Source: Sphagnum magellanicum (lineage: Eukaryota > Streptophyta > Sphagnopsida > Sphagnales > Sphagnaceae). From it: DNA of 64,000 nucleotides. Position 1 is the first letter of the stretch. Each line of letters opens with the position of its first letter. The notes under the pieces were generated by a model that saw only the letters and a list, made by a program, of their open reading frames with translations, made no database searches and was not told the DNA's origin. Location: the NCBI GenBank assembly GCA_021904315.1, contig CM038911.1:18573390-18637389 (forward strand), given 5' to 3'. Shown piece after piece: positions 29,370-57,600 of the stretch. Both the position numbers and the translations under genes were made by a program.

Positions 29370-29564
29370 AACAATTCTAGTCATGTACAATTTTTAGAAG
29401 AGATCAGAAGAGGATAGGGTTTGAATAGCTGTGATCTTTAGAGGTTTATGTCAAGTATGTGAACTTTGAGCTTGGGGGAGAAGCAAATTCTTCTCTGTAA
29501 GAGATGCTTCTATGGTTGGCAGGAGAGCTCCATTGTAATAAAACATTCTTTGTTGTTTCCAACA
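29370..29564 (+). repeat. 5' LTR of Copia element 1 (left end approximate)
   Basis: Matches the 3' LTR from AGGGTTTGAA onward, sharing TCCATTGTAATAAAAC, TTCTTTGTT and TTTCCAACA. The right end is exact because the primer binding site starts at 29565. Confidence 0.75.
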
Positions 29565-29880
29565 TGGTATCAAAACAAGATTAGATCTACAAGGTAATAA
29601 TAGCAATTAAAAATAGTCATAGATCCAATTTAGTGAAAAGTAAAGAATTCATTGAAATGAATCATTGAGAGTAGTTCCCCATGACATCATCACTTTCCTT
29701 TGGAAGTAATTAGGGGTCTAACTATAACACATTAGAAATTTGAGTGGAAGGTAGGTTTGATGGATCAAACTATCACACTTAAAAATTTTGATAAACAAAG
29801 ATTTGTGATTAGTAGTTGATGGGACAAGTGTAAAACCTAGTACAACCAATGGTTAAATTACATGGGATAAAAGAGATCAA

Positions 29881-30223
29881 ATGGCTAGAACAAGTCTTAT
29901 AACCCCTCTTAGAAACAACCAAATGCACTTGGAGACTAATGCTAAAATGTCAAAGGAGGTGTTGGATAAATTGGCTGCAATATTTGAAACCAAAGACATC
30001 ATATCAAATGCCTTTGCTACCACTCATTTTCATAGTCAAAAGATGAGTGAAATTGAAAGTGTAGAAAAACACTTGAGTTCCTTTAATGTTTTGAAGACAC
30101 AACTAAAGGTTGTAAAGACCAAAATGGTAGATGAATAAGCAACATAATGTTGTTTGGTTCATTATGATGAGTTTGTAGTGTCATTAACAAGACAAAACAA
30201 ACTACTTGGTTCATTACTAGAAG
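29881..30223 (+). pseudogene. Copia 1 gag, 5' part
   Basis: The open frame 29881-30138 has the helical gag pattern of plant Copia elements: LETNAKMSKEVLDKLAAIFE, then IESVEKHLSSFNVLKTQL. After a stop, YDEFVVSLTRQNK corresponds to the following gag segment. The remainder of gag resumes after the inserted transposon at 32346. Confidence 0.7.
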
Positions 30224-30257
30224 CATATGAACCTTATGGCGGGACCCCGGGGTCCCA
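30224..30257 (+). repeat. Left terminal inverted repeat of the nested transposon
   Basis: Begins CATATGAACCTTATGGC and ends with the palindrome GGGACCCCGGGGTCCC plus A. Confidence 0.8.
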
Positions 30258-30296
30258 AATAATAAAGCTAAAATGTCGAAGGCAATTAATTAATTT

Positions 30297-32151
30297 TTGT
30301 GTCGGCGATGGTCGCCCCGTCGCCCAGACGATCCAAACATGATTGCAATCATGTCCAAGCGCTACGTTGAGGACTGCTATGAAGAGCTGAATGCGCGTTT
30401 GCGTACTTTAATTAGATACTATGATGATATTGACATGTGGAGAACAACACCAATAAGCAAAATGCAAATGGCCCTTCAACACATTGAAGCATTCTTGGTC
30501 ACCTTCCCTAAATCTTTCCTTGCGCAAAAATGGGAGCAGAATATCATTTGCTACCTTACCGCTGATAAATCAGCACCCGCATCAGACCAGCTGCTGGAGA
30601 CGTAAAACACCTCTTCATCAATGGCCACCATGACATCCCCATCATCAACTGCCACAATTTCATTATCAGCGTCCACCAACTCCATTGCATCGGAGTTGTC
30701 AACATTGCGAGCTGAGCAGGTATCATATCGATCGGGCGGAGTCGGTGGTTCCCATCCGATCGTGATTCAGCAGCAACGTCGACCACTAGCGAATAGGAAG
30801 GAAACACATTGGAACGTTTCATTACCAAAATCGGCCAAGATGCGACCAACAAAATCCGTGCCGATTGGGCGTCTATGGAAATGGATCGGGTTGGTGTTGA
30901 ATGGTAGCAGTCAGAAGGGATCATCATGAATCTGATCTAGAGTGGATTCTCGGAACGTGAGATTCAGGCCTTCTTATCCATCGGTGGTTCAAAGATCAGT
31001 CGATTGCGCAACATAATAAGTGCCCATGATTCAAATTCAGATTGAGGATTTCGGTGGCAGCTTCGCCATGCCTCATTATGGGCATTCACGGCCATCGGCC
31101 GATTATTTTAACTCCAACCTGATGGTTTTGAACTTTGTTGTTGCTGACCTTACCAGCGACAGCGCCGACGTGCTCTTTTATGACGAACGAACGCAAGGCA
31201 AGGATGCGGATGCGCCATGCAACTTGCGTTGCATGCGGTTTACATACCACTCCAATAAGTTCAAGACAATGCTTGAGCGCAAGCAGGCGACACCCAAGAT
31301 CCTGGTGGTCATCCTCGACAACTGCGTCAAGTAGAACAAATCGCAACTTGTCATGCAGTTCTTTGCCCTGCTCTCCATCACATTCTACACTAAGGTCGTG
31401 TTGATTTACTTGATCCGTGGACATTCCCAGAACACTGCCGATAGGATTGTCGCGTGGTGCCGTAATGCGATGAAGGGAAAAAACTTCTACACTCCAATGG
31501 CTATCGTCGAGGCCATCACCCAAGTCAAAGGAGTCAACGCAAAGTTTATTGACCATCATGACTCTCAGCGCCCTTGTTACGTCGGTTGGGATCGAGTCCT
31601 GAAGAAGCATTTCAATCAGCTTCCCACTTGATACACGTTCAATTACTTTTTCGAGTTCGATCAAGGCCTCATGAACATGAAATTGTTGAGCTCAGCCCCA
31701 GACAGTTTGGCTATGTACTCCCACTAATCAAGGCATCAAGTCGGACTTGATTAAGAGATCGATTTTGTCTGATTTGTTCGGTGCCGGTATCATTACAGTT
31801 GAACAGGCAGCATGAATTCCCATACAACTACAAATTGCACCACTGTTAACCCTATCTAACAAAAAGTTGATTTCACTGAGGAAGAAGTACTTTTCGATTC
31901 CGCCCCAGGACCTATCGTACTATCTTAAAATTCCACTAACTCTGCATGCGCAACTTGATCAAACGGAACAGAACCAAGAGCAAGCCCCGATGACACGCCA
32001 AAACAAGCGCCAACATTTAGCAGTCGATGAGATGTGTAAATCGACACCAACGGTGGTGAAGGCAAGGCCGGGTCGCCCGAAGAAGGTCGAGATGATGGAG
32101 GTCGGGCCATCTCAGAAGTCCATCATGCGCTACTTCTCCCCCAAACCATAA
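30297..32151 (+). pseudogene. Transposase of the nested element (DUF7869-like RNase H fold)
   Basis: Coding pieces run in order on the plus strand, broken by stops and frameshifts. The N-terminal part starts MIAIMSKRYVEDCYEELNAR. A helix-turn-helix-like stretch, FSEREIQAFLSIGGSKISRL, lies near 30950-31010. The central part, 31020-31631, is open except for one TAG at 31332 where related proteins have Gln. It holds YGHSRPSADYFNSNLMV, LFYDERTQGKDAD, ILVVILDNCVK-stop-NKSQ and YLIRGHSQNTADRIVAW. The spaced DNCxxQNK and GHSxNxADR motifs are like those of DUF7869 proteins, with acidic residues suited to a DDE-type site. The C-terminal frame, 31867-32151, ends with an AT-hook-like KARPGRPKK (32059-32085) and QKSIMRYFSPKP (32113-32148), a PCNA-interacting-peptide consensus. 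The domain match is from memory, not a search. Confidence 0.65.
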
Positions 32152-32311
32152 TTAACTCGCAAGGCTGACCCATAATATAAAGTACCTTACAATTTCAAAA
32201 TGATTAGCTGGTCGTGTAGATCTCGGTGAATGCAGTAGATTGCCGCCTTCCTCAACTGAATCAAACTTGTATTGATGTTGCTACAGACTTTATGCAACAG
32301 CAGGATCCAGA

Positions 32312-32345
32312 TGGGACCTTGGGGTCCTGCCATAAGGTTCATATG
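32312..32345 (-). repeat. Right terminal inverted repeat of the nested transposon
   Basis: In reverse complement it begins CATATGAACCTTATGGC, then AGGACCCCAAGGTCCCA, so it differs from the left repeat at three positions. The inner palindrome is imperfect here. Confidence 0.8.
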
Positions 32346-33630
32346 ATGGGTTTGTAGTGTCATTAGTTCATGACAAAACAAACTATCAATGGATGAAGTC
32401 ATAGGATTATTGCTTAAAGATTTTTTTTAAAAAAACTCATGTCTTTATAAGAGTAGGTAAGGCCTTATTCTTAGAAATGTCGGATATCAAAAAAAATTGG
32501 AAGTTTTTCACACAAGGATAAAATAATAGAATTTGAGAAAAGGAGAAAGTTTAAAATAAGATGTTTCTATTGTGAAAAGTCAAGTAACATGATAAAACAT
32601 TGTAAGAAAATAATAACAAAGGAATAAAAGAGGAAAGTAAAAAATCACAATAAAAAATACAAGTGTTGTGTTATTTGTAATTTCTCTTTTAGTTGAATCT
32701 TCATTTAGATAATATGATATACGATGTGTAGACTTAGGGGCATTTCAACACATGACCCCAAACTTAGATAATTTTCTTGTCTATAATGCAATCTTTCCTA
32801 TTCAATGTGTATTCCAAGGAGATGACAATAAACATCCCATTATTGGAAAAGGCACTATCTCTATTATTGACTTCTAAAGGAAAGTTGAAAGAAATAAAAG
32901 ATGTTTTACATGTTCCTTCCTTAACAAAAAAAACCTTATTTTTGTAAGAAAAATAGTAGAAGTTGGATATAAAGTGTTAGTCCAAAATTATAATTGTATA
33001 GATTATGATGAAAGGGGAAAGTAATAACTAAAGCCATTTTGGAGAATGATTTGTATAGATTAGAAAATCATATTATTGCAAAAAACACACTTGTTATAGA
33101 AACTTTGGCATAAAAACTAAGATATATTACCAATGAAAAATAAAAACAATTGAAAGACTTAAACCTTGTAAAAGGGTTTTCCTTAAAAGAAGTAACATAC
33201 AATCATTTATGTAAGGGTTGTGTAGAAGTGAAACAACATAGACAAAAATTCTTAAAGGATGGAGGACATTGAACATCTAGGTAGATAAAAAATTACTTTT
33301 AAGGGTCCAATCACCCTAATAGGAGCCATATGTGGCCCCTTAGACCATTGCTTTATTCTTAAAATATTCTTTAAAAATTTTAATACGTCTTTCAAAAAAA
33401 GTTTCAATTTTTAAAATTTTAAAATATTATTATGTTAAGCTATATATATTTTTAAATCCCAAAATATGTCATTAAAAAATATTTTCAAATTGTGCTTTTA
33501 ATGTCAAAACTATTTTTAAATTGTTTTTATGTAGATTTTAAGCAGTGATTATAAGAGGTTAAAAATCCTTATATGTTTTTTTCATTCATTAGATTGATTT
33601 CAATTTTTTATGGTATGTGCATAATGTATT

Positions 33631-33689
<59 letters not shown>

Positions 33690-35948
33690 TTTACTTTTTT
33701 TATAATCCAAAATTCAAAAAATTAAGTAGTGGTTACGATTGTTTTTGGTACATGTTTTTATGACTGCACCCTTAGATGTTTGTAGCCCTATGCAAACAAA
33801 GCTTCTTGGTGGAGCTAGTTACATAATCACCTTCATTGATGATTTTTCAAAGAGAATTGTGGTCAATTTTAAGAATTAGAAAAACCAAGTATTAAGTATC
33901 TTCCAAGAAAATGGTGGTGAGTACATTTCAAATGCCTTCAATCAATTTTGTATAAATAATGGCATAACAAGACAATTCATAGTGCTTTACACACTTGAAC
34001 AAAATGGTGTAGCACAATGAAAGAAAATGTCTTTACAATGATGTGCTAAAAACATGTTCAAGCAAATTAAACTTCCCGATTTTTTTGGGCGGAAGTAGTA
34101 TGAATGACAATATATCTACAAAATAAAACTCCTATGAAAGTTATTGTAGGAAAAACATTGGAGGAAATGTGGACAAGTGAGAAACCACATGTGGCACATC
34201 TCAAAGTGTTTAGTTGTCAAACCTATGCTTATGTCCCAACACAAAAAAGACAAAAATTGGATTCAAAGTTTGAGAATTAATGTATCTTCATAGGATATAT
34301 TGAACGAGTGACATGATATAAATTATTCAAGGAAAAAAATTGTATTCTATAACAAGGATGTCAATTTTGATGAAACATTTACAAGTTTTGAAAAATTGGG
34401 AGAACTTGTACACAACCAAGAAAGAAGTTATCAATCTAGTGATGATACATATAAAGTGGAAGTTAATGAGTTCATAATGTAATCTCAAAAAGAGGGTGAG
34501 AACTCTACTATTGAAGATGGGTTAGATAACATTTTTGAGGACATAAAAGAAGAAATTATGATTGTGAATAACCAATCATCCATTCTACGAAGGTCGAAAA
34601 GGGGGAAAAAAAACTTTTGATAAATTCATCACTTCCATGATAAAGCTATGGAAGTTACAAAAGATGAAAACCTATTACTAGAACTTATTACTTTTGAACA
34701 CCTAACGAGATTAATTGGGAGGAAACAATTAATTCCAAATTCAATTCAATGATGCAAAATGAAACATGGACATTAATTGACCTACTTCCATGATATAAAA
34801 CTACTAGTTGTAAATGGATCTTTAAGATCAAATTGAAGTTTAATGGGAGTATTGACATTTACAAAGCACAGTTGATCGTTAAAAGATTTCACAAGTACAT
34901 GGTTCTGATTATCATGGCACTTTTTCCCGTGTTGTAAAATTCACCTTTATACCAAATGGATGCCAAAATTACATTCCTTAATGGATACCTACAAGAAACA
35001 ATTTATATGGAACAACACCAAGGGTTTATTCAAACCAAAGACTCATCACAAAGCTTGTAAGTTAAACATAAGACACTTTATGAATTTAAACAATCACCAA
35101 GAATGTGGTATGATATAATTGATACTTTTCTTTTGACATTTGGTTTTAAAAATAGTGTAGCAAACACCAATTTGTACATTCTTAGACAAGATAATCAATT
35201 GGTGATGTTGGCCTTATATGTTGATGATGCAATATTAGTAAACAATGATGTTGATGGATTGATCGAAAGTAAGTTAGCAAAAGAGTTTGCCATGACAAAT
35301 TTGGGGCACATTCAACATTGTCTTGGGATTCAAATAAAAAAAGATAGATTGAATTGCACCATTTACATGCACCAAGCAAAGTACATTGAAACTAAATTAC
35401 AAATGTTTAAGTTGGAAATGAACAAAGTTGTTGCGACTGCACTTGAAATAGGTTTAAAGCTCACAAAGGAAATGTTTCCTTAAATTGAAAATGAAAAGGA
35501 AAACATGAAAAAGGTACCATACCAAAGTGTTGTAGGTAGCTTAATGTATTGTGTGACTTGTAGTACAAGACTTGACATTGCATATTTGGTGGGAATAATA
35601 TTATAGTTTCTTACAAATCCAATTGAGACTCATTAGTAAATTGTCAAAGGGATTTTTGAATACCTTAGAAACACAACAATGTTTGGATTACTATATGATG
35701 GAAATAGGAATATAAATCTAATGGGATTTACATATGTTCATTAAGTAGAAGATTTTGATAGTAGAATATCAACATCAAGTCATCGTTTCACTTTTGTGGA
35801 TGGTCTAATTGTTGAACTACTTCAATTATTGATGATGTGAATTCCATTTGTAGAACTATTACACCTTGGTCTCCACAATGAAACCCTATTGCCAAGAACT
35901 CAAACAACAAGGCATTGTAGATTGATTAAAGACCTATCTAAGTGGGAG
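32346..35948 (+). pseudogene. Copia 1 gag 3' part and pol (integrase, RT, RNase H)
   Basis: Gag resumes with YDGFVVSLVHDKTN. A zinc knuckle reading CFYCEKSSNMIKHC (near 32562-32605) has Asn in place of the usual His. Integrase is readable near 33775-34020: GGASYIITFIDDFSKRIVV, then ENGGEYISNAFNQFC and EQNGVAQ. Reverse transcriptase runs from about 34740 to 35483, with KITFLNGYLQETIYM, SPRMWY and LALYVDDAILVNN, the last being the catalytic YVDD motif. RNase H is only traceable (VGSLMYCVTCSTRLDIAY, EDFDSRISTSSHRF). Frameshifts and stops are frequent. An (AT)n tract interrupts the pol region at about 33634-33686. Confidence 0.75.
33634..33686. repeat. (AT)n microsatellite, about 53 bp
   Basis: Uninterrupted alternating T and A inside the decayed Copia 1 element, in an AT-rich stretch just before the integrase relic. 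Confidence 0.9.
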
Positions 35949-36180
35949 TGTTAAAAAAATAGTTAGTTTATAATCATTTTATAAGTTACTAGTTTTTAAA
36001 AATATGAACATCAATGATTCTTTAAAAGAGATGTGAAGAGGTTAGGGTTTGAACAATTGTGATCTTCAAAGGTCTATGTCAAGTATTGAGCTTGAAGGAA
36101 AAATAAATTCTTAGGCGTAAAAAATACTTCATGGTGAAGAAAGTTCCATTGTAATAAAACTTTCTTTGTTATTTCCAACA
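35949..36180 (+). repeat. 3' LTR of Copia element 1
   Basis: Starts TGTTAAAAAAATAG after the purine tract and ends TTTCCAACA, with the canonical TG...CA ends. Length is 232 bp. Confidence 0.8.
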
Positions 36181-38547
36181 TTACAATTGTTATTTTGCAT
36201 TTTTATGTAAAATATTCCAAACATAATAATAGCAAACCACTTATGCATTTGTCAAGAAGCTTGTAACAATCTTGACCATATTGTCAAGTTCCTTTATGTT
36301 ATCATTATAGTGATCACTATCTAACAATATTTGTTTCATTATCTTAAATAACATATTAAACTACAAGCTTGGTACACCTACAATGTTCCAACTTCACTAT
36401 GAGTTACAGGTATAAAATCTTAGATATTACTTAATCTTTGCACTTTACAAATTAAGTTTGTACCCCTTAATGTGGCTTACATTAAAATCATGTTATTAAT
36501 CAATTTAATGAACATGAATTCTTCTAAAGATTTGAGATAATTTCACAATCTTTTAAATAACTTCCACTCATCTTGAAAGCCACAATTAATCACTCACATG
36601 AATAATTTTGTACAAATGTTGCAAATTATCATCGAATGAAGGGACTCCAAATTTTCCCTTCAATATAATGCATTGCACAGCTTTTGATTGGTTCATTGCA
36701 AATAACACAATTTTAAAATATAAAAATGAAATGCAAAACATTTTCCTTATATAATTTACAAGATTGAAATTGAAGACAAAACATATGGAATAAATTTTCT
36801 ACTTGTAACTTAGTTTATGACTAAACAACTTAGTTGTAAATTAAACTAGGTTGCAACTAGAAAATTTAACACATATCCTTGTTTTCCTTTTTAGTTTTGT
36901 AAATTATATAACTAAATAGGTAAGTAAATAACTAGTGAATTAGTGAAATAACTAATTAATTAATAATAATAAATTTCAAAAATGATAATTATTAACTAAT
37001 TTATTAAAATATAATTATTAGTAGTTAGTACATATTGAATATAATACCTAATTAGTAAGTAGCCCTACCTACCTATTCACCTATGTATTTAACTACCTAC
37101 ATATTTATTTACCTACTTATCTAGCCTCCTTAACCAAACCACAATGTATATACAATATATTTAACATGCTTTAAATATAACAAAAATACATGAATCTATA
37201 AATATATCCCTAATATATTTGAAAACACCCTAAAATATTCCAAAACTATAAGTACATCACATAAAGGTAATCAAGTTGTAATTAATTTGACACAAAAGCC
37301 TCTTCTTGGATGAAAAGTTCAAAAAATTAGTCAACATGGAAGGATGAAAAACCTAGTCACAAATTATTCACACTATAGTCATAAGAAAAATAATAGATCG
37401 AAAAGTATGGTGATTAGTTGTAAAATTTACAAAATACATTGCAAATGACAATTAATTGCATACAACTTCACAATTAGACAATTGCATAATACAAAATTTC
37501 TTCTAATGGACACAAATATCACTTAAATCCATAATTATTATTTATATTCCCCCTACTTATGTTAGTTAAACAATAACCAACTTTGACTTATTACTATCTT
37601 GATTGTTAATTAATGATTATAAGCAAGGGGTATACATATCATTAATTATCATGCATGGTTTGATGTAGGAATATGCTCGAAGTTCAATACCAAACTTTTG
37701 GAAATAAATATTAATTTTTAGTCCACCTTAAAGAACTAACACCATGTCTTCCTCCTATGTTATGATTTATACCCTAATAAGATGTTTTGCAATTTGAGCT
37801 AGTTGAATCTGAAGATGGTGTGATAGTCATGCTAAAAAAATAGCCAAGGAAAGGAAAACAGAATATTCGGGTTTGAAATTAGGCTTAATTCATTTGAAGC
37901 AAATCTCACTTTGTTTAACACTTTATAATATAAACTACAAGCCCTCCAGATGTATTGAAAAAAATGTGAGTTTGTAATCGTATTTATCTTGTATCTTTCA
38001 ATCACAATATTATTTTGTTACTAGTCACCCATGAATATAGAATTCACAAACATAGTCCCCATATTTGTGTTAGTTAAGATAGTGCCTACCTACATCTTTA
38101 GATTACTAATGGAATGGCATTTGTTTGTCACTCTTGCAAACTTTGAAGATTGTGAACCAAAAAAGATTTGTGCCTTTTTTGGTGGTCACTATACTTCATT
38201 ATAAATTCCCAAGAACTCTTGTTGGGATGGAGCTTGAATGTGCTTTAGATTTGTTCTTCATGCACATGTCTTGTGGTACTATACTATATGTTTAACTAAC
38301 AAGTTGTGCTTGTCTTTTTGTAGGTTTCAAATTTTTTCCTTCAAAATGGTAAATGTATCAAATTTACTATTTAAGGTGATACATGTATTTGTGGTAGCAA
38401 GTGGCATGAATAACATTGCCCATATTACAAAACTTGTTATCAAACTTGGGCTCCACATTGCTTTGCGCTATTAATGATAATCCATTTATAGAAAATAAAG
38501 TACAATAAGTTTACAAGTATGATGTTAAAGGCTGAAATTGAAATATA
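36181..38547. other. AT-rich intergenic DNA, no gene seen
   Basis: At 37055-37130 there is a quasi-repeat of ACCTACCTATT-like motifs. At 36900-37030 the sequence is almost pure A/T with short TAATTA palindromes. No coding sequence is recognisable. Confidence 0.5.
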
Positions 38548-38746
38548 TGTTGGATGATATGCTCAAGCCCTCATTATTTTGTGGCAACCTATAGATTAAA
38601 CTTATCAAGTATTAGCTAATATTTCTATTTTTAGTGCAATAGTTCAAGTATATAAACAACACGGGTTATCTTTCCCATGAACGATTATGTTCCCTGCAAT
38701 GTGTTTCTATGTGTAAAACTTTTTACTTTAAATAAAAAAATTTACA
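38548..38746 (+). repeat. 5' LTR of Copia element 2
   Basis: TG...CA ended, followed directly by the primer binding site. Confidence 0.88.
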
Positions 38747-43351: not shown

Positions 43352-43549
43352 TGTTGGATGATATGCTCAAGCCCTCATTATTTGTGGCAACTTCTAGATT
43401 AAACTTATCAAGTATTAGTTAGTATTTTTATTCTTAGTGCATAAGTTCAGGTATATAAACAGCATGGGCTATCTTGCCCATGAGCAGTTATGTTCCCTGC
43501 AGTGAGTTTCTGTGTGTAAAACTCTTTACTTTGAATAAAGCATTTTACA
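43352..43549 (+). repeat. 3' LTR of Copia element 2
   Basis: Same ends as the 5' LTR. The purine stretch AGCAAGACAGGG lies directly before it. Confidence 0.88.
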
Positions 43550-50052: not shown

Positions 50053-50570
50053 AAAAAATGGCCCTAATTTGCCAGATTTTGAAATTATTTCTAGTTTGGC
50101 AATATCACAACAAACTAAAAAAATAAATCCTAATTTGCACTCCTGATTACTTTATCAACAATATTTTATGTTGTTTCATGTAAGATTGATTACACAATTA
50201 AACCAAAATTGTATAGGGCTGAAATAAGCTATGATACATAACTAATGAAGTAATTTTTTTAAATAAGTGAAATCTCAAATTCACTTACCTCCCTTTACTT
50301 ACTTCTAAAAGCTTTAGGTTAAATGTTTTTAATAGTCCTAAGTTTCAATATATTTTACATTGCCATGCTTGAAGATTATGTATTTTCCACCTCACCCATT
50401 TTAGTTTCAAGCTCTATATCATGTTATGGTGTTGTAAACCCAAGCGAATGTGTAGTCCTTGCCTAAAGGCATGACCCAATAACGTAACTACGATAATAAG
50501 ATCCACCAATGCAGGATGGATGATCCTTGTACTCCAATGAACAAGATGTGGATACCGATAGGTAGTCAAT
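50053..50570 (+). repeat. Left arm of a large inverted repeat
   Basis: Reverse-complementary to 51742-52393. Shared blocks include GGCCCTAATTTGCCAGATTT at the outer end, CTAATTTGCACTYCTGATT, AAGCTTTAGGTTAAATG, AGCTCTATATCATGTTA and CCTTGCCTAAAGGCATGACC. By eye the arms are about 85-90% alike. Confidence 0.85.
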
Positions 50571-50892
50571 ATCATAAATTGATTAGGATCGGTTGATGCA
50601 CTATGGAACATATTAATGGGAGTCTCCTTCACAAATAATCAAACTCACACACTATTTTCCCCTTTTTTCTTTTTGCATGGGCTTGAGCTATGAAGCCTGC
50701 CTTAACTTGTCCTTCAAGTGTGATTGCCATTTGTGGTGAAGGGCTGCCATCAACCTTGTCCTTCAAAGTGAAAGATTTGAATGAGACTACTTGCCTACTA
50801 CCAGAACCAGCAGCTCATCATGTAATAGCTCAACCCTTTTAAATGACAATCCATAAGAATGACAAATATTTCACATATTAAATTGGAAACAC

Positions 50893-51138
50893 ATGGTGTT
50901 TATAGTAGTGGTGAAGCAGGCTCTTGATTCCCACAGCAACAATTCTACCAAGTTTAACTTTGAGTTGTTGTATGACATTAAGGTCTTCTATGGGCTGGCA
51001 ATGTTGCTGCCTATGTTGAAACGAGTGAATAGTCTAACTAAGCTGGCCCAAGCTCAAAATGTTTTTTTTTTGTTGTTGGCCTTGCCTACCCAGGCAAGGA
51101 TATTGTGTTTAGATTCATTATATAATATAGCAGGTTAA
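50893..51138 (+). pseudogene. hAT transposase fragment (ZNF862-like)
   Basis: The frame reads SNNSTKFNFELLYDIKVFYG followed by LPMLKRVNSLTKLAQAQNVF. This is the segment before the C-terminal domain of ZNF862-like hAT proteins and parallels NFELFCDVNLFISLSCMLE plus VHALIKFAQK of the relic at 10503-10742. The coding match ends near 51060, where a dispersed repeat begins. It lies in the loop of the inverted repeat. Confidence 0.6.
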
Positions 51139-51383
51139 GGGATTTTGGCTCCTAGGTAATAAATAGGTCTATTTTTATATGAGGATTTTTGAAAGATGAT
51201 ATTTTGGCTTGTGTTGAAACTTGAGATTAGTGACAGAGTTATAATATCTTGAAAGATTTTGGTTTCTTTTAGAGGATTTTCTGAAGATTATATTTTTACA
51301 TGATGAAATATAATTGAGTTTTCATAATTCTTCTTTTGCCTTAAGATACTTTTTAATGTAAATGACTAGGCCACAATGTGACA
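51074..51383. repeat. Dispersed repeat family C, copy 1
   Basis: Begins TGTTGGCCTTGCCTACC and ends ACAATGTGACA. It shares ordered blocks with copies at 52731 and 56359 (AGGCAAGGATATTGTGTTTA, TTGGTTTCTTTTAGAGGATT, AGATACTTTTTAATGTAAAT). The TG...CA ends would suit a solo LTR, but there is no target duplication and no internal domain nearby. Confidence 0.75.
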
Positions 51384-51741
51384 CACCCCTTATTTTGACT
51401 ATGTGATAGCAATCAAATTTTGTCAACCAAATTTGTTTTAACATTATATGGACCCTCACATTGACTTTTGAGTTAGATGTGTTTTACTTTTACAAGTGTT
51501 AGATGGACTCCTATTGTGATCTCATCATCATGTGATGGATATATAGAAATTGAATACATGTAAAGAGCACTTAATCATTGATTACAACGAACAGCACATT
51601 TGAATGTTTTATTTCAGAATTGTTGTCTCACTTTCCTTCACATAATGTAATGAAAGCTTTGGGTTTAGTTGATATCGACTTTGAAGAGTGAGAAAAACAT
51701 TTAATCGGGGATATTATTAATGGATTATTATGCATATTAAT

Positions 51742-52393
51742 ATCCATATTAACATCTTGTTCATTGGAGTACAAGGATCAACCATCCTGGATTGCTGTAT
51801 CTCATTATTGTTGTTATGTTATTGGGTCATGCCTTTAGGCAAGGACTACACATTCGCTCGGGTCTACAACACCTTAACATGATATAGAGCTTGAACCTAA
51901 AACAAGGAGGGTGAAAAATAGGTAATCTTCAAGCACGGCAATCTAAAATATATAGAAACTCAGGATTATTAAAAACATTTAACCTAAAGCTTTATTACTT
52001 AAGTCAGGGGAGGTTAACAAATTTGATATTTCACTTATATATAAAAAAAACTACTTCAATGTTATGTATCATGGCTTATTTCAGCCCTATGAAATTTTGG
52101 TTTAATTGGGTATTTAATCTTACATGAAACAATGAAAAATATTATTGATAAAGCAATCAGAAGTGCAAATTAGGGGTTTTTTTTTTTTGGTTGTTGTTAT
52201 GATGTTGCCAAACTGGCAATAATCCACAAACAGAGTATGTCAAATTTGGCTATAGACCCAACATGAAAGTCAAACATTTTAAGAATCCTTTAATATTTTG
52301 GTTACTTACTTACTGGAACGTGTTTTAGAAATCTGATGATTTTTCAAAAGAAATAATTTCAAAATCTGGCAAATTAGGGCCCATTTTTTTCAC
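51742..52393 (-). repeat. Right arm of a large inverted repeat
   Basis: Pairs with 50053-50570. It has about 130 bp extra near 52220-52350 that the left arm lacks. The loop between the arms is about 1.2 kb. Confidence 0.85.
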
Positions 52394-52730
52394 AGAAACC
52401 TTTGTATGTATCATATATTTCTCGCAGGTTGAAAAACAAATTGCAACCAAAATTCACCAAAATTTTGAAAAATGGTGCAAAATATGTTTAATATCCCAGT
52501 AAAAATTAATGCAAACATCATGGCATGAATGAATGAATGATGGACTTCGTGTATTTTACACCTTTCTTTTGTTATTAATTCATTGTATGCCCAAATGGGT
52601 CTAACAATTAAAGTCGTCTTCCTTCTTCTTCTTCTTCTTCTTACAGCTCATTTGGTTATTGTGCACATCTTACGTCTTGTTCTGTTGTCATCCTAATCAT
52701 TAACAATGGCGAGAGCTTCGGAACATGATT

Positions 52731-53045
52731 TGTTGGCCTTGCCTACCAAGGCAAGGATATTATGTTTAGATTCATTGTAGAGTATATATAGTAGCTTAAG
52801 GTATTTTGGCACCTAGGTAATAATAATAGGTCTATTTTTTATATGAGGATTTTTGAAAGATGATATTTTGGCTTGTGTTGAATCTTGAGATTAGTTATAT
52901 AGAGTTGTAATATCTTTGAAAGGTTTTGGTTTCTTTTAGAGGATTTTTTTTTGAAGATTACTTTTTTGCATGGTGAAATATTTTGAGCTTCCATAGTTTT
53001 GCTTTTTGCCTTAAGATACTTTTTGATGTAAATGGCAAGGCCTAA
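52731..53045. repeat. Dispersed repeat family C, copy 2
   Basis: Same start as copy 1. The right part ends GATGTAAATGGCAAGGCC and lacks the TGTGACA end. It lies just outside the right arm of the inverted repeat. Confidence 0.75.
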
Positions 53046-54645: not shown

Positions 54646-57600
54646 CGATAATAGATCAAGGAGAAGATCATACAAGTCGTCGATGCAAGAAGAACTATAT
54701 TGCACTGAAAGGATTGGTTTCAAGGAATAGAAGAATCCCCGCCGCCATCGCTGCTTCTTCTCTTGCCATCGTCTTTCTCTGCACCGCAGCAGCTTTTCTC
54801 GTGCTTATACAAGGAGCTGCAGAGGCGCAAACCATAGCAGTCTCTCCTCATCAACAAGCGCCGGTTCTTCTGACGCAACAACGTCGTCGTCTCCTGCAGC
54901 AGCCGCCTCCTCAACCAGACCTGATCGAGCTCGCGTGCGGTGCGACACTGTACCCAGACGCAGCTTGTAGCGACGCGTTGTATTCCGACTCGCGTACCTT
55001 TGGTGCAGCTACTGCACAAGATCTAGCAGCGATTCTCACGAGTATTGCACTCGAGAGAGCTTACGACGCACTGGCGGATGGACAAACGCTCGCTTCCCAG
55101 GTGGGGGCTGCAGGGAATGCAAGCTTGATTTCCGTCTCAACGCAGTGTTCCGAGGTCTTGGATCTCGTTGTCTTCCATCTCCAGAACGCGGAAAGCGCGT
55201 ACACTGTACAGCAGCAGCAGCAGCTTCTGCTTCTTGCGGACATTCAAGCATGGCTCAGTGCAGCTTTGAGCTATGGCACAGATTGCTACTCACCACTGAG
55301 CGCGTATAACCAATTCTTCTCGACTCTTCCTTTGATTCCCGAGCTGCTGGCAAGCTTGAACGTGAGCTTGGAGATCATGAGCAACGCACTGGCGATGGCG
55401 GATGCACTCATCAACTACGGCCCTGATGCTTCGCTCTGGAAGCCGCCGCCGGAAACCAGACAGGAGCAGCTTGCGGAGCTTGCCACCACTTCCTACACCG
55501 ATCTCTTCCCCGACTGGATTGCGAAAGAGACCTCCAGCTGGTTGCACGGCGAGCTCAAATTCGAGCCTTCTGTTACGGTTGCTCTTGCTGCTGCTTCTTC
55601 TGCTGCTAATGGTTATTCCAGCATTCAGACAGCAGTTGATGAAGCTCCTTCCTGGAGCACATCAAGGTCAGAATTCTGCGAAGATCATAGACAGACAGAT
55701 GTTCTGAATTTTGCGAGCTGCATCAGAGAGATATTTTCCAGCTTCATTTCTTCTTCTCTGCATTCCTGAATTCTCTGAACTGCAATTCGACAATCTTGTC
55801 TTGCAATGCGAGACAAATCTTGTAGCAATTTTTTTTCTTGTTTGCGAGAACCGAGCAACTCATCGTCATGCAACAAAAACTTTTCTCGGGTCGGGAGAAA
55901 AGCTCTTGTGGGAAGAGAACTTTGTTTGTTTGTTTGTGTTGGTTTTGGTTTTTTGGAGTGACTGAGTCCTGACTCCTCACTGATGCAAAAGAGAGAGTGC
56001 GTGGGTGGGTCGTGGTGGGAGCAATGCGGCAGGTACGTGATCTACATAACAGCAGGAGTGTACAATGAAGTGGTGAGGATTCCCAAAGACAAAACCAACC
56101 TGATGTTCATAGGCGATGGCGTCGGCAACACCATCATCACTGGCAACATGAGCGTTGCACTCATTCCAGGGATGATCACTTGGCTCACACCCACTGTGGG
56201 TAAGTTAGGTCATCAAAACATGTCCATCCTTTTGCCCTAATTCTCTCTCTCACACACACATTTCCTCTCTTTGATATGTGTGATAAAATAAGTTTCTCTC
56301 TTCTTTTCTCTCTCTCAAATCTTTCTCTTTGCATATCTATCTCTGAAGCAAGGTAGTTTGTTGGCCTTGCCTACCAAGGCAAGGATATTGTGTTTCGATT
56401 CATTATCTTGAAGGATTTTGGTTTCTTTTAGAGGATTTTTTGAAGATTATATTATTGCATGGTGAGATATTTGAGTCTCCATAGTTCTCCTTTTACCTTT
56501 AGATACTTTTTGATGTAAATGGCAAGGTCACAGTGTGACACGCCCGTTGTTTTGTTTTATTTTGTCATGTCGGGCTGAGATCTCCCAAACCACAGCATTT
56601 CATGTTGTGCTCTTGGTATCTTCAGAAAGCTCTCAGTCTCTGACCCTCTACACAAGACCAACACTGGTTTGAACCAGTGTTGGGTGGGTGGGTATCAACT
56701 AGAACATACCAGCTGGTAACTACCTATGAGTAGTGATTGTTTTTTAAGAAACTTCATTACCAGCCTGGTACTGGTATTGGACTTTGTTTTTTGACTTTCA
56801 AAATTCACAAGCAGCCTGGTATTGGTATTGGATCTCTTTTTAACTTTCATACCAGCCTGGTCTTGATATTAGGGTTCATGGCTGATTTTTGGATGGTATG
56901 TTTTCAAGGATATACCTGATCCTGAGATCATTATAGTATTAAGTTGGTATTTCCTCAAGTGCCTACCAGGCAGGTACTGGTGTAAGGTTGGTATTGCCTC
57001 AAGTAACATACATCATCACTCTCCATTTGAAATCATTGCTCAAAGAATCGTTCCTAATATTGCCTTGTGTGTAATATGATGGGAATATGGACAGCTGTGG
57101 ATGGAGCTGGTTTCATGGCCCAGGGCATCACATTTGAGAATACCGCAGGTCCTGATGGGCATCAAGCTGTGGCACTAAGAGTAGACAGCGATCATTCTGT
57201 GTTCCAGAGTTGCTCTATAGTTGGTTTCCAAGACTCACTGTACACACATGCATTGCGCCAACTCTATTACAACTGTTCAATTGAAGGGACTGTTGATTTC
57301 ATCTTTGGAAATGCTGCTGCTTTTTTCCAGAACTGCAATATAATTGTCCGGGTTGGAAGACCCACAGCCATCACTAGCACCTTGACTGCACAGGTACAAA
57401 ACAAAACAAAATGCACATGTCACTTGTATACATATAATGTACACAGATGATGAACACCCCTAGTTTGCACATGTAAAGCACTTGGAGAAATTTCATTGCC
57501 CATTTGGAAGGCAACTTATATCAATGAACATCACTTTGGTAAAGAGTGGTCTTATAAAGCCTAAGCAAGAACCACAGGAGGTTTTTCTAAAAGTAATTAG

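Follow-up and report, generated by a model that had tools for sequence, protein, structure and literature searches.

A decayed DNA transposon with a DUF7869 catalytic domain in Sphagnum magellanicum, probably of Sola2 type

Results and discussion

A 64,000-nucleotide stretch of Sphagnum magellanicum DNA (GenBank assembly GCA_021904315.1, contig CM038911.1, positions 18,573,390 to 18,637,389 of the forward strand; hereafter the window) carries an element of ~2.1 kb at 30229-32340, which is probably a defunct copy, shortened by an internal deletion, of a Sola2-type cut-and-paste DNA transposon family. Its broken gene contains a domain of the Pfam family DUF7869 (PF25273), and the DUF7869 branch formed by the window and bacterial elements looks like the transposase of transposons with terminal inverted repeats (TIRs). 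The transposon reading is based on the ends, the AWWT target duplications, the multiple copies, a derivative resembling a miniature inverted-repeat transposable element (MITE), bacterial homologues of like layout and the predicted fold of a bacterial member. Placement in Sola2 follows from an Asp-Asp-Asp (DDD) triad combined with 4-bp AWWT duplications, the published marks of that group. A first-pass annotation, made from the window alone, had proposed a DNA transposon with TIRs, and sister copies that share the ends and 4-bp duplications bear this out. Its suggestion that some DUF7869 proteins are transposases has good support from the sister copies, from the bacterial TIR elements and from the predicted fold of one of their proteins, L015. 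Its label of an unclassified superfamily is probably wrong.

Ends and target site duplication

The borders of the element were set by sister copies elsewhere in the host genome and give the following features:

30225-30228, no strand: left target site duplication ATAT, 4 bp (seven of the eight tabulated sister copies likewise have an exact 4-bp duplication)
30229-30257, + strand: left TIR, 29 nt, starting GAACC (inverted-arm search and sister copies)
31011-31021, no strand: approximate site of a ~0.58-kb internal deletion (element positions 788/798, counted with the 34-bp arms; matches to four sister places)
32312-32340, - strand: right TIR, 29 nt (inverted-arm search and sister copies)
32341-32344, no strand: right target site duplication ATAT, 4 bp (sister-copy comparison)

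The 34-bp inverted ends reported earlier exist as arms (30224-30257 and 32312-32345, complementary at 31 of 34 positions). The TIR proper measures only 29 nt, and the outer CATAT/ATATG consists of the palindromic 4-bp duplication ATAT and a single additional base pair. Since the outer CATATG is palindromic, duplications of 2, 4 or 6 bp (TA, ATAT or CATATG) are indistinguishable from the window alone. The duplication ATTT found in sister copies is not palindromic and thus separates the target duplication from the TIR. With up to three mismatches allowed, the window holds two occurrences of the end's inner 26 nt, both at the element ends, a result matched by none of 100 shuffles. The left TIR contains a 16-nt perfect palindrome at 30241-30256. 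The GC content, previously described as unlike the surroundings, does differ (46.7% against 33.5% and 28.5% in the flanking retroelement DNA), yet it is weak evidence on its own because 14 of 619 same-sized window stretches are equally GC-rich.

Sister copies in the host genome

Searching the host genome (439 Mb, 31 contigs) with the element returned 34 matching pieces, including the window's own, and 16 further places were extracted, eight of them with both ends. Together with the window, eight of nine tabulated copies show an exact 4-bp duplication, ATTT in six and ATAT in two, all conforming to AWWT. Uninterrupted copies reach 2638-2694 bp (L048, L049, L050, L054 and L057), followed by L056 with 2390 bp, and L051 spans 8282 bp, split by other DNA. 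At the other extreme, L053 (C11:3735896-3736364) is a gene-free, MITE-like copy of 459 bp with both ends and an exact ATTT duplication. At four places (C5:6.34M, C6:2.4M, C7:13.3M and C2:6.68M) the match stops at query position 788 and restarts at 798-800, 579-585 bp further on in the sister sequence; the window copy is therefore internally deleted. A profile built from the bacterial proteins described below detects, in sister copies, both the catalytic region and the one upstream of it, the best being L049 (41.7 bits, profile positions 229-586).

The broken gene

In agreement with the first-pass annotation, the element holds one broken gene, which requires three reading frames and has two in-frame stops inside its catalytic part:

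30338-30929, + strand: N-terminal gene remnant, frame +2, stop at 30603 (translation; without a significant Pfam match)
30791-31030, + strand: frame +1 gene remnant; includes a stretch merely suggestive of a helix-turn-helix (Trp_repressor at E 0.11, below the cut-off)
31020-31727, + strand: catalytic part, DUF7869 (PF25273), frame +2 (Pfam match and alignment with bacterial proteins)
31867-32151, + strand: C-terminal tail, frame +3 (translation; without a Pfam match)

The catalytic part is interrupted at 31332 and 31629, and its frame ends at a third stop at 31725. With stops read through, it matches DUF7869 at 46.2 bits (E 5e-12), well above the gathering cut-off of 26, and with X at the stops at 44.6 bits (E 1.6e-11); the family resemblance noted earlier from motifs is thus significant. 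The candidate triad comprises the Asp residues of IEDFGG, DNC and GHSQNTAD. Pfam searches found no significant family in the gene parts outside the DUF7869 region; matches to families other than DUF7869 at E 0.01-0.2 were treated as chance. The C-terminal tail ends in RPGRPKK, which we take to be AT-hook-like, and QKSIMRYF, presumably similar to a PIP-box, the PCNA-binding motif. Such a tail could tie transposition to replication.

Bacterial relatives

No relatives of the window protein or its pieces were found in viral contigs, phages or prokaryote genome contigs, and PHROGs and NCBIfam searches gave nothing significant. A degenerate DNA pattern for DNC.GQNK, run against the prokaryote genome contigs and viral contigs, matched 38 loci in prokaryote genomes and one in viral contigs. 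We required a second motif, GHTKF[SAG]PD, in the same frame 35 residues after the DNC motif; it is present in 11 of the 39 loci, and the 28 without it were set aside. Seven loci (L004, L010, L015, L028, L031, L033 and L039) have open frames of 628-659 aa, with an uncertain start codon in L028. L015 comes from Desulfocicer vacuolatum DSM 3385, whereas the hosts of several other loci are uncertain because these lie on short contigs of metagenome bins. The L015 protein had no significant NCBIfam match, and no relatives of it were found in plasmids, phages or viral contigs.

TIRs flank the gene in seven of the 11 loci (L004, L015, L021, L028, L031, L033 and L039), and the elements so delimited measure 2044-2715 bp; in L021 the frame covers 308 aa only. 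The TIRs are ~40 nt long and begin with GGG(G), and this GGG start was used to set the borders manually. AWWT accounts for 13 of the 14 flanking tetramers (background 4.3%), with exact pairs at three of seven elements and agreement at 23 of 28 positions. When the flanks were joined, L015 yielded an open frame of 241 aa. The frame was open in L021 too and includes a PqqD domain, but this domain is confined to one side. The result covered 7 residues on one side for L004 and 2 residues past the junction for L039, and for L028 and L033 nothing passed the cut-offs applied. Bacterial and moss elements thus share the catalytic domain, the triad, AWWT-rich flanks and an initial G; the GGG(G) TIRs of ~40 nt and the open frames distinguish the bacterial elements from the window copy.

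Protein comparison and predicted fold

All 12 aligned proteins, the window's among them, match DUF7869. Invariant positions are K61, the D, N and C of DNC, the following Q, N and K, and the G, H and D of GH....D, where the window's Q stands for a stop codon that was read through; the first Asp of the triad is nearly invariant. Identity between the bacterial proteins and the window protein is 16-22%, and a profile of ten bacterial proteins matches the latter at 37 bits (hhalign probability 94.4, E 8e-8). The predicted structure of L015 has an integrase/transposase RNase H fold in which the three Asp residues (D355, D434 and D476) can be placed. Nearest to this model are integrases and Mos1; it shares its predicted fold and the order of acidic residues along the fold with Tc1/mariner (Mos1) and retroviral integrase cores. 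Mariner elements differ from the window family in their TA target, and a PDB sequence search gave no match below E 0.5.

Classification and alternative explanations

In the excerpts of PMC10741241, Sola elements are described as carrying a DDD transposase gene, with 4 bp of target duplicated and TIRs 11-1124 bp long; their hosts include the moss Physcomitrella as well as bacteria and animals. The excerpted text of PMC3627910 (Bao and Jurka 2013) gives Sola2 target duplications as 4-bp AWWT, for example ATAT, AAAT and ATTT. The Sphagnum family agrees in its duplications, in the presence of TIRs and in a DDD triad that is aligned between window and bacterial proteins and positioned within the RNase H fold of the L015 model. 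Its distribution, bacteria plus a non-flowering plant (a moss), is likewise similar. Amoebal Sola2-Fanzor elements, according to PMC3627910, encode an 888-aa transposase and differ in their TIRs of 12, 13 or 21 bp, compared with 29 nt here. The longest copies (2.6-2.7 kb) fall within the Sola2 size range of 2-9 kb.

On this basis, recognition of the 29-bp inverted ends would fall to an intact protein, ~630-660 aa long in the bacterial relatives, whose DUF7869 domain would act as the DDD RNase-H-fold catalytic domain that cuts the DNA. The element would then be joined into AT-rich 4-bp AWWT targets, which would become duplicated. Cutting and joining of DNA by this protein is inferred, and the element presumably moved by cut-and-paste rather than copy-and-paste.

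Several observations weigh against this assignment. The name Sola2 is deduced from layout, triad and target, and no Sola2 model came up among the family-library matches. The excerpt of PMC3985635 groups Sola with RNase H1 and the copia RNases H, in an RNase H-like clade distinct from that of mariner and the integrases; the nearest structures to the L015 model, by contrast, are integrases and Mos1. Foldseek returned no match to the model at E <=0.001, the best (2.2e-3) being a chain of a type V-K CRISPR-associated transposon (CAST) complex, followed by TnsB (8.1e-3) and, at lower ranks, Argonautes and others. For the window's own catalytic part the predicted fold was poor, with a predicted local distance difference test (pLDDT) score of 38. 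Eight of the 16 extracted places were left out of the duplication count, one end being missing or too diverged, and sister copy L048 is flanked by ATCT/ATCC. Other copies were thus recovered with both ends, as the first-pass annotation had anticipated; the intact gene that it expected from them was found in none of the seven sister copies examined (L051 excluded), where the longest stop-to-stop frame is 211 aa. Among the bacterial loci, no TIR pair was seen around the gene in L005, L010, L032 and L038 (four of 11), the L015 flanks AAAT/ATTT match in inverted rather than direct orientation, and the duplications of L028, L033 and L039 agree at three of four positions.

A last point of this kind concerns the other DUF7869 loci of the host genome, which has at least 150 DUF7869 matches, compared with none in 14 control genomes. 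The window copy and its close sisters are absent from the matches listed, which are thus a lower bound made up of other lineages. Many of these loci are higher-scoring and have no visible TIRs; they may be host genes, belong to another type of element or lie in longer ones. We scanned 20 loci at ~3.4 kb and 14 stretches at 9.9 kb, 24 loci in all with ten in common, and found TIRs with an AWWT duplication in 0 of 20 and 0 of 14, respectively. Six of the 20 and five of the 14 showed weak inverted arms (BLAST E 0.0009-0.008), none with an AWWT duplication. Among 15 known elements used as a positive control, the scan found arms in 14, the ends being displaced by ~6-16 nt in L048 and L057. It recovered the AWWT duplication belonging to the element in nine (the window copy, L049, L050, L054, L056, L057, L004, L021 and L031); L053 was missed, the scan giving one false pair there. 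The scan is therefore a fair but incomplete test, which misses a fair share of elements, chiefly old copies, short ends and elements >9.9 kb. The transposase result for the window lineage and the bacterial elements should not be extended to every DUF7869 protein.

Of the competing explanations, the one that survives best, unlikely as we consider it, is that DUF7869 defines a superfamily separate from Sola, the two having only the 4-bp AWWT preference and a general DDD fold in common. The absence of Sola2 proteins from the comparison, the missing NCBIfam name for L015, the failure to find the Pfam name DUF7869 in the literature searched by that name and the position of Sola away from the integrase/mariner clade (PMC3985635, excerpt) would all accommodate it. 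Set against these, the AWWT rule with its ATAT and ATTT examples is identical to the Sola2 rule in the excerpt of PMC3627910, DDD with 4-bp duplications fits Sola as excerpted from PMC10741241, and Sola is known from bacteria and moss while the DUF7869 elements here occur in bacteria and a plant. A related and likewise unlikely reading is that DUF7869 is the catalytic domain of a non-Sola transposase lineage that extends from bacteria to plants and has bacterial insertion sequence (IS)-like members, with many of the loci without visible ends being its descendants or in the course of domestication.

That a non-transposase host gene fragment was caught between the ends of an unrelated transposon, in Pack-MULE style, would suit a protein without a named function and the many other DUF7869 loci without visible ends. 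We regard it as very improbable, given that bacterial homologues lie between TIRs with AWWT-rich flanks in seven of 11 loci, the predicted fold is an integrase/transposase fold and the same gene region occupies the same place in sister copies. Moreover, Mutator-like elements (MULEs) are expected to produce 7-12-bp duplications (PMC10741241, excerpt), as opposed to the 4 bp observed. A mariner-type element with its TA duplication (same excerpt) hidden in CATATG, compatible with the window alone, is refuted by six sister copies that carry ATTT on both sides and no TA duplication.

The element points to a likely mechanism for a Pfam family listed as of unknown function, as at least one DUF7869 branch appears to be a DDD transposase whose ends and target are defined. 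DUF7869 genes annotated as host genes may be transposon remains, and the transposase claim is directly testable in those bacterial copies whose frames are open.

The retroelement hosting the insertion and its neighbourhood

The element is inserted within the gag of an older copia retroelement:

29393-36181, + strand: copia-type long terminal repeat (LTR) retroelement hosting the insertion (LTR pieces, gag PF14223, RVT_2)

Its LTR pieces (29393-29565 and 36021-36181) are 77% identical, the gag match (PF14223) lies upstream of the insertion at 29881-30138, and the reverse transcriptase match RVT_2 (PF07727) lies downstream at 35061-35480. A direct repeat of 49-51 bp flanks the insertion on both sides (30156-30204 and 32336-32385). 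A long target duplication is an unlikely source, given the 4-bp duplications of the sister copies. Because of these, and because the flanks joined after in silico removal of the element read as gag (LLGSLLEAYDGFVVSL), the repeat is read as a tandem duplication within gag. As a test, joining the flanks has little power: the gag score goes from 38.7 to just 43.5 bits, the match stops short of the junction, and alignment to the other repeat unit shows no gain (66 for the joined flanks against 70 for the right flank alone).

Genes for a PMEI/pectinesterase and for histone H3 also lie in the window and are indicative of a land plant. Long imperfect inverted arms (40 nt at 95-98% and ~480 nt at 85%) mark a ~2.3-kb stretch at 50053-52389 that adjoins telomere-like AAACCCT repeats; no obvious target duplication was seen there. 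Direct repeats at 38548-38746 and 43352-43549, 87% identical and 4.8 kb apart, are perhaps the LTRs of another old retroelement. A dispersed direct repeat is present in three copies (51073-51397, 52729-53042 and 56357-56554) that are 86-96% identical in pieces.
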